From Acidimicrobiia bacterium (GTDB lineage: Bacteria; Actinomycetota; Acidimicrobiia; Spongiisociales; ZC4RG35), in the NCBI GenBank assembly GCA_028285585.1, contig JANQOU010000002.1:267263-331262 (forward strand): a stretch of DNA of 64,000 nucleotides. The letters run 5' to 3'. The notes below the pieces were generated by a model. The model had not been told where the DNA came from. It did not search any database and was given only the letters and a program-made list of their open reading frames with translations. The first letter of the stretch is position 1; each line of letters starts with the position of its first letter. This document shows, in pieces, positions 11,526-46,730 of this stretch. A program made the position numbers and the translations under genes.

Positions 11526-11598
11526 CTCCGGGGGTGGGACTCGAACCCACAACCTCCGGATTAACAGTCCGCTGCTCTGCCGATTGAGCTACCCCGGA
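11526..11598 (-). tRNA. tRNA-Asn (GTT)
   Basis: On the minus strand the 73-nt cloverleaf has a 7-bp acceptor (TCCGGGG with CCCCGGA) and a G discriminator. The D arm is GCTC...GAGC. The anticodon loop is CTGTTAA with anticodon GTT, and the T arm is GTGGG-TTCGAGT-CCCAC. CCA is not encoded. The discriminator G and GTT anticodon are those of bacterial tRNA-Asn. It lies downstream of rpoD on the same strand. Confidence 0.95.
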
Positions 11599-43575: not shown

Positions 43576-43610
43576 AAAAACCCCCTGCCGGTGCAGAGGG
43601 TCAGACGCAG
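43576..43610 (-). terminator. Transcription attenuator of cimA
   Basis: On the minus strand CCCTCTGC pairs with GCAGGGGG (8 bp, one G-U) around ACCG and is followed by TTTTTCTATTG, 17 nt before the cimA ATG. A competing 8-bp stem pairs AGGCGCAG (43624-43631, at the leader stop) with CTGCGTCT (43603-43610). Together they make a classical terminator/pause-hairpin layout. I could not resolve the antiterminator by eye. Confidence 0.75.
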
Positions 43611-43630
43611 TCCGGTATGTGGGCTGCGCC

Positions 43631-43666
43631 TCAGTCGATAATGATGATGGTGTTGATAGGGGCCAT
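43631..43666 (-). CDS. Ile-rich leader peptide of cimA
   Basis: An 11-codon ORF too short for gene callers encodes MAPINTIIIID and stops 71 nt before the cimA ATG. Five of eleven residues are Ile, four in a row. Its stop is the first base of a stem whose other arm precedes the terminator hairpin. Scarce Ile-tRNA would stall the ribosome on the Ile run and alter folding, relieving termination. The ATG is 10 nt after a -10-like GATACT with no Shine-Dalgarno, suggesting leaderless translation. Confidence 0.82.
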   Translation of the reverse strand: MAPINTIIIID

Positions 43667-43676
43667 CGAGGCGAGA

Positions 43677-43705
43677 AGTATCGCGAGTCGTGGTCGAACG
43701 GTCAA
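43677..43705 (-). promoter_or_regulatory. Promoter of the cimA leader
   Basis: TTGACC (43700-43705) and GATACT (43677-43682) are 17 bp apart on the minus strand. The metA stop codon TGA lies inside the -35. Expected transcription start is close to the leader ATG, as at the Phe leader. Confidence 0.6.
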
Positions 43706-44682
43706 GACCTGGCCCTTCGCAGCACCTCAGCAAGCCAGTTGGAGTAGATGGCCTGGCCTTGGGTCACCCAGGCCGGCTTCCGCCTTCGGGTCACCTCGTG
43801 CTCGGGGAATTCTGGAGATTCACCTCCGACCACTAACTCCTTGAACCGGCTCAGGACCTCGCGCGCCTCATCGTCGAAGTAGTGGTCGGGGAACACCGGA
43901 AACTCCCTCTCACCGGCGAGGTAGCGGCCTACCTCCCTCTTGTATTCCTTCAACAGGCTGATGTCGTCGTATTCGGGATGGCCCTGGAAAAAGACGTACC
44001 GGAACCCGTCTTCGCTTGTCGCCATGTGCACGCCGGCCTCGTTGCTCTCCAACAACACGTTGACACCGACGCCCTCCAGGTCGGTTCGGGTCATATCGAA
44101 CCAGTGCGAGTGAGGGGCTTCAACCGACGAGTCGACCCCGTCCAGCAGCGGATGATCGGCGTCGAGCCTGGCGTGCTCATAAACACCCCATCGCTTGCTG
44201 TCGAGCTTGGACCGCTTGAGAAGGCCCTTGTGCTCCAAGACGGCGTGAGTGGCCAGGCAGGAGCAGAGAGTGCTGAGAACCGATTCCTCCCCCCAATCGA
44301 TGACCTCGGTCAACCCCGGCCAAAACGGCTCGTCGGAGAGCTCGAAGTGGGCGGGGTTGGCGCCGGTGATGATCAAGGCATCGAGACTGTGGTCCTTCAC
44401 TTCAGAGAAAGTCAGGTAGTTCTCGGCGACGTAGTCCTGTGCCTCGTCGCCACGTGACCATGCGGCCAGCGTAAAAGGATGCACGTAGAGATTGGCCTGG
44501 TCTTCGAAACCCGAGACGAGTCGCACGAACTGGCGGTCGGTGGCAGCCAGGGCCGCATCCGGCATCAGATTGAGGAGGCCGATGCGGAGGTCGGGCAGGC
44601 CGGACTCGGCCTGGCCGACGGCCACGCCCTCGGAGTGAAGCCGCTGGAACGCCGGCAGCGATGAATGCTCTACGACAGGCAT
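43702..44682 (-). CDS. metA: Homoserine O-acyltransferase, MetA type
   Basis: A 326-residue MetA-family enzyme that activates homoserine with succinyl- or acetyl-CoA for methionine synthesis. It starts with typical IGLLNLMPDAALAATDRQF and LIITGANPAHFE. The nucleophile Cys is in STLCSCLATHAVLEHKG, and FFQGHPEYDDISLL carries His and Glu. Acyl-CoA preference cannot be told from the residues seen. Many actinobacteria use MetX instead. It is co-transcribed with the hydrolase and metY upstream; the hydrolase stop adjoins its ATG. Confidence 0.93.
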   Translation of the reverse strand: MPVVEHSSLPAFQRLHSEGVAVGQAESGLPDLRIGLLNLMPDAALAATDRQFVRLVSGFEDQANLYVHPFTLAAWSRGDEAQDYVAENYLTFSEVKDHSLDALIITGANPAHFELSDEPFWPGLTEVIDWGEESVLSTLCSCLATHAVLEHKGLLKRSKLDSKRWGVYEHARLDADHPLLDGVDSSVEAPHSHWFDMTRTDLEGVGVNVLLESNEAGVHMATSEDGFRYVFFQGHPEYDDISLLKEYKREVGRYLAGEREFPVFPDHYFDDEAREVLSRFKELVVGGESPEFPEHEVTRRRKPAWVTQGQAIYSNWLAEVLRRARS

Positions 44683-45473: not shown

Positions 45474-46730
45474 TCAGGCTCTCTGCGACAGATAGAGGGC
45501 TCGGCTCAGGTCTTCCGTCAGATCATCGACGCTCTCCAGACCAACCGAGATCCGGATCAGGCCTTCGGATATCCCACCAGCAGCCAACGCGTCGGCATCC
45601 ATCCGATGATGGGTGGTTGAAGCGGGGTGGATCACAAGAGTCTTGGCGTCCCCGACGTTGGCGAGGTGAGATGCCACCACCACGGACTCGATGAATTTCT
45701 GACCCGCCTCCCTGCCACCTTTGACGTCGAAGCTGAAGATCGACCCGGCTCCCCGAGGCAGCAGCTCTTGGGCCAGCTCGTAGTCGGGATGAGATTCCAG
45801 ACCTGGATACCTGACCCACTCCACCGCATCGTGAGCCTCGAGATAACGAGCGATGCTCATCGCGTTCTCGACGTGCTTGTGCATCCGCAGCGGCAGCGTC
45901 TCCAGGCCTTGGAGAATGAGAAAGGCCGTCATCGGTGCCATGGCCGCACCGAAGTCGCGAGCACCTTCCTTCCGGGCTCTGGTGATGTAGGCAGCGGGGC
46001 CGAACTCCTCGACGAAGTCGAGGTCGTGGAAGCCTTCATACGGCTCGGTGAGTGTGGGGAACTTGCCGGATGACTCCCAGTCGAAGGTGCCGCCGTCGAC
46101 GAGAAGCCCTCCGATGACCACACCGTGACCGCTAAGGAACTTGGTTGCCGAGTGAATGATGATGTCTGCACCCATGTCGAACGGCTTAGCCAGGACCGGA
46201 GTGGCGAAGGTCGAGTCGATCATCAAAGGAAGCTCGTTCTCGTGGGCGATCTCGGCGATGACGGGGATGTTCAGCACCTCGGCTCCCGGGTTGCCCAGGG
46301 TCTCTCCGAAGATGAGCCGTGTCTCGGGCCGAATGGCCGAGCGGAAGCCGTCGGGATCGCGCGGGTCGACGAAAGTCGTCTCGATCCCGAACCGAGGCAA
46401 CGTGTAAGCCATCAGGTTGTGGGTACCGCCGTAGATCGACTGGCTCGACACGATGTGTGAGCCGGCGCCCATCAACGTCGCTATCCCGAGATGGGTCGCA
46501 GCCTGGCCACTGGCGGTGGCGATGGCACCTACCCCGCCTTCGAGGGCGCTGATCCGCTCTTCCAAGACGGCGTTGGTGGGGTTGGTGAGGCGTGAGTAGA
46601 CGTGGCCGGTTCGCTCGATGTTGAAGCGAGAAGCCGCCGTGTCGGCGTCGGGTAAGACGTAGGAGGAGGTCTGATAGATGGGGACCGCGCGCGCTCCAAA
46701 GTCGGAGTCCGGCTGCTGCCCGGCGTGCAA
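45474..46730 (-). CDS. metY: O-acyl-L-homoserine sulfhydrylase (MetY/MetZ)
   Basis: A ~418-residue PLP enzyme of the Cys/Met-metabolism family that replaces the acyl group of O-acyl-homoserine with sulfide. The PLP-binding lysine is in IIHSATKFLSGHGVVIGG. GARAVPIYQTSSYV, RLTNPTNAVLEERI and YPGLESHPDYELA are typical, as is the length for MetY. The start is uncertain. The TTG at 46730 would remove the usual PYDLDTLALHAGQ beginning, while the frame continues to an ATC at 46769 just after an in-frame stop, with no ATG or GTG. Confidence 0.92.
   Translation of the reverse strand: MHAGQQPDSDFGARAVPIYQTSSYVLPDADTAASRFNIERTGHVYSRLTNPTNAVLEERISALEGGVGAIATASGQAATHLGIATLMGAGSHIVSSQSIYGGTHNLMAYTLPRFGIETTFVDPRDPDGFRSAIRPETRLIFGETLGNPGAEVLNIPVIAEIAHENELPLMIDSTFATPVLAKPFDMGADIIIHSATKFLSGHGVVIGGLLVDGGTFDWESSGKFPTLTEPYEGFHDLDFVEEFGPAAYITRARKEGARDFGAAMAPMTAFLILQGLETLPLRMHKHVENAMSIARYLEAHDAVEWVRYPGLESHPDYELAQELLPRGAGSIFSFDVKGGREAGQKFIESVVVASHLANVGDAKTLVIHPASTTHHRMDADALAAGGISEGLIRISVGLESVDDLTEDLSRALYLSQRA

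Follow-up and report, generated by a model that had tools for sequence, protein, structure and literature searches.

Branched-chain leader peptides in front of ilvB are known from Corynebacterium, Mycobacterium and Streptomyces (PMC1262725, PMC10272879, PMC11857589, PMC13236596), and codon-dependent attenuation has been shown by reporter for the ilvB1 leader of Mycobacterium tuberculosis (PMC13236596). The M. tuberculosis ilvB1NC system resembles the cimA element described here in its phylum, Actinomycetota, in the branched-chain control codons near the leader stop and in the intrinsic terminator; however, it has a leader transcript of about 120 nt, LVVI control codons and a mutually exclusive terminator and antiterminator (PMC13236596), whereas the cimA element uses Ile codons only, is predicted to be near-leaderless and has no antiterminator that we could find. 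The Corynebacterium ilvB-II motif and C. glutamicum ilvBNC also combine a short branched-chain uORF, a hairpin and a terminator, but their uORF covers most of P1 and their antiterminator overlaps the terminator (PMC10272879, PMC11857589); the cimA element has no such overlap, and its hairpin 1 begins at the stop of the leader. The actinobacterial LEU element is a conserved pseudoknot upstream of leuA (PMC1262725), whereas the elements reported here are two simple hairpins.

The E. coli leaders ilvL, leuL, thrL and trpL likewise place a control-codon leader peptide and a terminator before a biosynthetic operon, but these leaders are longer and have a Shine-Dalgarno site. Attenuation of the E. 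coli pyrBI type may be similar in that the proximity of the ribosome itself would block the terminator; it differs in its signal, UTP, and in a leader that is translated into the terminator, whereas the cimA leader carries Ile codons and, counted along the linear sequence, ends 28 nt before the terminator. Within the same genome, the trpE leader MRANTYRNWWWSHP* is also a short control-codon leader followed by a terminator, but it has a classical antiterminator arm. Relative to the known branched-chain leaders, the target gene cimA, the lineage Acidimicrobiia and the unusual anatomy are new; a literature search for cimA or citramalate leader peptides and for attenuation in Acidimicrobiia, covering few subscription journals, returned nothing relevant.

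Results

A leader element precedes cimA

The 64,000-nt stretch of DNA analysed (the window) holds cimA on its minus strand, and the region upstream of the gene had been read in an earlier note, from the sequence alone, as a complete isoleucine attenuator. The individual parts of that reading are borne out (Table 1): the promoter TTGACC-17-GATACT, the leader MAPINTIIIID with four consecutive Ile codons, a stem that begins at the leader stop, and an 8-bp GC-rich terminator with TTTTT, followed by cimA. The leader contains five Ile codons in total, the fifth being codon 4; the first base of hairpin 1 is the last base of the stop codon; and the 8-bp core of the terminator stem is extended by two outer pairs and closed by a loop of 4. 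The predicted 5' UTR is only about 3-5 nt, which would make the leader transcript near-leaderless.

Table 1. Features of the cimA locus and related leaders (window positions unless given with the genome and contig handle G000:C1)
Feature	Position	Strand	Evidence or remark
ilvB sister leader MKTDLTAISVLLLIE*	~G000:C1:266412-266590, just before window position 1		with hairpin at stop and terminator
ilvB, 3' part	1-999	plus	TIGR00118, 773.3 bits at G000:C1:266579-268261
leuA sister leader MNHELRTDLLLLM*	G000:C1 ~13.9-14.1 kb		same genome, class II leuA; four Leu codons before stop
cimA, citramalate synthase, 524 aa	41985-43559, ATG 43559	minus	TIGR00977
Intrinsic terminator	stem 43602-43579, then TTTTT 43580-43576	minus	folding, terminator scan, covariation
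Hairpin 1	~43631-43603	minus	base pairs with last base of leader stop codon; folding and covariation
Ile run ATC ATC ATT ATC	43648-43637	minus	four consecutive codons in the leader
Leader ORF MAPINTIIIID*, 11 codons	ATG 43666 to TGA 43631	minus	sequence reading
-10 box GATACT	43682-43677	minus	17-nt spacer from -35; 10 nt before leader start codon
-35 box TTGACC	43705-43700	minus	sequence reading and promoter scan; TTGAC at same position in nearly all relatives
Homoserine O-acyltransferase (MetA-like)	43702-44682	minus	NF003776, 384.9 bits, cut-off 358; outside element
O-acetylhomoserine sulfhydrylase	45474-46730	minus	upstream, same strand as cimA

The RNA of the cimA leader folds to -37.2 kcal/mol (z -4.48), and 0 of 200 shuffled sequences were equally low. 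Scans for single parts are less informative: between 41000 and 46000 the promoter scan found 1 promoter (TTGACC/GATACT) against 0.9 expected, and the terminator scan of the region found 2 against 2.5 expected, both at chance level, so that the case rests on the combination of parts and on the relatives. With Rfam models at gathering score, the sole match in the whole window was a tRNA at 11526-11598; no T-box or riboregulator was matched.

CimA scores 639.5 bits against TIGR00977 (cut-off 450), no 2-isopropylmalate synthase model reaches its cut-off (best 265.9 against 517), and the protein has an HMGL-like domain and a LeuA allosteric domain; thus, the assignment as a citramalate rather than a 2-isopropylmalate enzyme, for which the earlier note took the leader as independent support, agrees with the protein models. 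Citramalate synthase is usually described as feedback-inhibited. The ten best members of the PALP family in the genome include no biosynthetic threonine deaminase above the curated cut-offs, which fits CimA as the main entry to isoleucine, and one generic serine/threonine dehydratase is above its own cut-off. CimA is likely the sole source of 2-oxobutyrate.

On its upstream side, the -35 box of cimA overlaps the TGA stop of the MetA-like gene. Because of this overlap, transcription running on from the methionine genes would encounter the cimA terminator as well.

The element is conserved and both hairpins covary

Orthologues of cimA were taken from 60 related genomes (58 of which had a match of some kind) and from named genomes; these put the genome of the window within Acidimicrobiia (Actinomycetota), among uncultured members. 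All of the best 30 orthologues in the related-genome set have the promoter, the near-leaderless leader, the stop hairpin and the terminator. After removal of duplicates, 45 distinct cimA elements remain across Acidimicrobiia, and their geometry is tightly kept. Every one of the 45 leaders has 7-15 residues with its last Ile codon 0-2 codons before the stop, and in every element the start of hairpin 1 falls within -3 to +1 nt of the stop codon's end, with 0-7 nt separating hairpin 1 from the terminator. A -10 was recognised in 41 of the cimA leaders, and in 39 of these its end lies 6-11 nt from the start codon. In Actinomarina the leader reads MKKIIIII*, retaining Ile through the AT-rich codons ATT and ATA. 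The earlier note had named loss of the leader codons in relatives that keep the hairpin as an outcome that would count against it; in these relatives the Ile codons are kept along with the hairpin.

Comparative folding, which the same note had suggested as a check, supports both stems. In an alignment of 23 cimA sequences, a better-aligned subset, 96.8% of cells are paired and 11 of 19 base pairs have changed on both sides (7 of 9 in hairpin 1, 4 of 10 in the terminator); none of 500 shuffles scored as high, and structures slid along the same alignment as a control reached at most 59% paired. RNAalifold on the full MAFFT alignment recovered the terminator alone, because hairpin 1 is misaligned in the divergent rows. 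The covariance model R1 was too specific to cimA to retrieve the ilvB and leuA sister elements.

A composition-blind detector finds branched-chain leaders

A search for ATYATYATYATY (ATY x 4) gave a single occurrence in the genome of 2,592,747 bases, and the pattern TTGAC-N19-ATACT-N5..14-ATG gave two, one ahead of cimA and one ahead of ilvB. We also used a detector that is blind to amino acids and requires a short ORF, a stop abutting a hairpin, and a hairpin abutting a terminator. On both strands of the 64-kb window it returned exactly one match, the cimA leader, while 20 shuffled windows gave one match (0.05 per window). When it was run on 1.08 Mb of loci, chosen around branched-chain genes, it returned 96 distinct matches, 90 of which carry three or more codons for Ile, Leu or Val among their last six. 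The other six comprise two weaker cimA leaders, the site of one of these two read in another frame, two leuB-operon leaders and one match that is apparently unrelated.

The detected leaders also show a stop-codon bias, with TAG in 79 of 96; of 48 long ORFs in the window, 9 end in TAG. No other stop codon has G as its last base, and TAG alone can therefore make a G-C pair at the base of hairpin 1, where that G is usually paired; the preference is probably due to this base pair. The cimA leader of the window itself has TGA, which counts against the attenuator proposed below.

Sister leaders match the pathway of the downstream gene

The element recurs in front of other branched-chain genes. It is present at the ilvB loci of 30 of 30 relatives (25 are retained by the strict detector), and four genomes yielded a leuA version. 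Where Acidimicrobiia hold cimA inside an operon, the element lies about 1-2 kb upstream, before leuB or, in one locus, before ilvE. These leuB-operon leaders are nearly without Leu codons and carry Val and Ile codons instead, although LeuB also serves leucine synthesis.

Codon content among the last six positions differs between the sets. The cimA leaders have Ile at a fraction of.59, with Leu and Val at.01 each; the leuA leaders have Leu at.62 and neither Ile nor Val (both 0); the ilvB leaders have Leu.41, Val.18 and Ile.16; and the leuB-ilvE-cimA leaders have Ile.39, Val.20 and Leu.04. Outside the last six codons, Ile, Leu and Val together account for just.07-.12. The leader codons thus track the pathway of the downstream gene, and this is the strongest evidence we have, giving strong support to sensing of charged tRNA. 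For the Ile-tRNA control that the earlier note had proposed at cimA, the sensing part gains from the conserved Ile codons and from sister leaders with matching other codons, and the regulation itself stays a prediction.

No antiterminator above chance at cimA

In one respect, the word "complete" in the earlier description is not supported. We measured sequestration as pairing of the 5' arm of the terminator to upstream sequence in a transcript ending before the 3' arm. In all four sets the 5' arm was on average 0.00-0.04 paired, and none of the 96 elements reached 50%, whereas the genome's own trpE leader, which directly precedes trpE on G000:C6, reached 0.78; there, an arm AGGUGG after the stop pairs with CCACCU of the terminator. 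With the ribosome edge varied, the E. coli controls gave 0.90 (pheL), 0.86 (trpL), 0.75 (hisL) and 0.75 (thrL), a partial signal for ilvL and ivbL (0.50 each), and none for leuL within the stretch tested (0.25), as its switch lies further upstream. Over the same wide range of positions the trpE leader scored 0.83 against a cimA mean of 0.42; over a narrower range, the cimA elements equal their shuffled null (mean 0.40 against 0.41). For ilvB the mean is 0.26 against a null of 0.26, with high scorers commoner (0.20 against 0.06). The leuB-ilvE-cimA group stands apart: a sequestration of 60% is attained by 77% of its elements and by 58% of the null, and in some of them an imperfect pairing of 7 bp recurs between arm 2 and arm 3 (GUG-N-GCG with CGU-C-CAC, about -7 to -9 kcal/mol). 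This weak pairing may act as an antiterminator, in which case the wider family would not be uniform.

Arm-to-arm complementarity over all arm pairs is near or below shuffled expectation, and kissing or other pairing of loop 1 or of the leader with the terminator is at or below chance. A scan taking the best of many positions made 13 of 45 cimA elements seem positive, and the excess disappeared against the shuffled null (0.27 against 0.24). In equilibrium folding with ribosome masks, the terminator formed wherever the ribosome was placed. This measure does not discriminate, as the antiterminator-bearing trpE leader also gave 0.999; similarly, the fold-window z (cimA mean +0.65) fails as a test, being +1.03 for the trpE leader despite its antiterminator. 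Since both measures fail on trpE, we relied on the transcript ending before the 3' arm. Taken over these tests, no antiterminator above chance was found in the cimA, ilvB or leuA elements, while the same kind of test is positive in E. coli trpL, pheL, hisL and thrL and in the trpE leader of the genome itself.

Discussion

We propose that a cis-acting, ribosome-mediated transcription attenuator very probably tunes cimA to the supply of charged Ile-tRNA. From the parts, their conservation, the covariation of the two hairpins and the pathway-matched codons, we infer translation of the leader, stalling of the ribosome and termination of the transcript. Of the features of a Yanofsky-type attenuator, the cimA elements have the run of end-product codons, the intrinsic terminator and a candidate first hairpin by the control codons; an antiterminator mutually exclusive with the terminator was not found above chance. 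On this sequence evidence, the element would work like a ribosome-mediated attenuator, and we do not file it as a classical member.

In the proposed process, the transcript would start about 4 nt before the 11-codon ORF. When Ile-tRNA is charged, the ribosome would run to the stop, occupy the 5' arm of hairpin 1 and leave; the terminator would then fold, and transcription would end ahead of cimA. Under a shortage of Ile-tRNA, the ribosome would stall on the Ile run just before the stop, and the polymerase would read through. For the sensing step this accords with attenuation as already established elsewhere (PMC1183508, PMC13236596). The most speculative part is the means by which a stalled ribosome would avert termination if no antiterminator is involved. 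One tentative answer, which we regard as possible and no more probable than that, is that branched-chain attenuators across the class Acidimicrobiia lack an antiterminator and use the stop-anchored hairpin as a ribosome-gated distance switch: a stall on the first Ile codons would leave hairpin 1 free to fold, and the ribosome, thus brought near the terminator, would block it. With hairpin 1 folded, the stalled ribosome would be 3-28 nt from the terminator stem (median 17 from the first control codon, 8 from the last), whereas a ribosome at the stop would open hairpin 1, so that the distance becomes the linear one of 22-35 nt (median 27). The linear distance from stop to terminator is 28 nt at the cimA of the window, with medians of 27-28 in the four sets and 22-40 nt overall. 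The distance switch is based on a single study of an E. coli terminator, made with unstructured linkers, in which moving the stop from 28 to 5 nt before the terminator lowered its efficiency from about 90% to below 10%, with a threshold at about 27 nt (PMC4824070). It counts against our account that the antiterminator, a defining part of classical attenuation, is missing. The distance switch has the further difficulty that a ribosome halted at the stop would likewise be close to the terminator, and the model thus needs a short dwell there and a long dwell at the Ile codons.

Other readings have to be weighed against this proposal. That an Ile-rich small ORF lies by chance, and without function, beside an ordinary terminator would accord with the chance-level promoter and terminator scans of the region, but it is extremely improbable given 45 distinct conserved leaders, the covariation, the pathway-matched codons and one detector match in the window where 0.05 are expected. 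A classical Yanofsky-type switch would have a 2:3 antiterminator, missed by the folding, that forms in alternation with hairpin 1 (1:2) and the terminator (3:4). Such a switch would account for all the remaining parts being present, and the recurrent arm 2:3 pairing of the leuB-ilvE-cimA group points the same way; nevertheless, sequestration of the cimA 5' arm at the level of its null, beside controls of 0.75-0.90 and a trpE leader of 0.83 over the wider ribosome range, together with arm-to-arm complementarity no higher than shuffled expectation and the mean fold-window z of +0.65, makes it quite unlikely.

Hairpin 1 might instead act directly, hindering closure of the terminator in the exit channel of the polymerase when it is folded and being kept from folding by a ribosome at the stop. 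The start of hairpin 1 in the stop codon and the 0-7 nt spacer suit this, as does the reach of the ribosome, which at the first Ile codon would leave the 5' arm free and at the stop would cover about 10 nt of it, and the on/off logic matches that proposed for M. tuberculosis ilvB1 (PMC13236596). The two hairpins, however, share no sequence. In riboswitches, termination is efficient even when a helix directly precedes the terminator, and hairpin 1 alone is therefore unlikely to block it; we regard this reading as doubtful. We give about the same low weight to the reading of hairpin 1 as a polymerase pause hairpin that keeps the ribosome in step, with regulation by an unknown protein, by translation or by RNA decay. 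Pause hairpins are indeed part of classical attenuators (PMC1183508), and Seliverstov et al. (2005) reported that attenuators of Actinobacteria are often without some components and that codon changes before ilvB of S. coelicolor had no effect (PMC1262725); but the spacing of 0-7 nt to the terminator and the TAG preference are left unexplained, and the strong codon specificity across the four gene sets speaks for leader translation as the sensor.

The attenuator proposed here has consequences beyond cimA. The sister elements amount to a natural codon-swap experiment, in which the codon content of the leader tracks the product of the downstream genes. The signature of a short ORF, a stop-anchored hairpin and a terminator offers a specific means of searching metagenomes to annotate their branched-chain genes. 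Conservation of the element extends through a large and mostly uncultured class, Actinomarina included, and its missing antiterminator, in a genome that also has a classical trp attenuator, raises the question of whether distance alone, set by a hairpin, lets a stalled ribosome disable a terminator.
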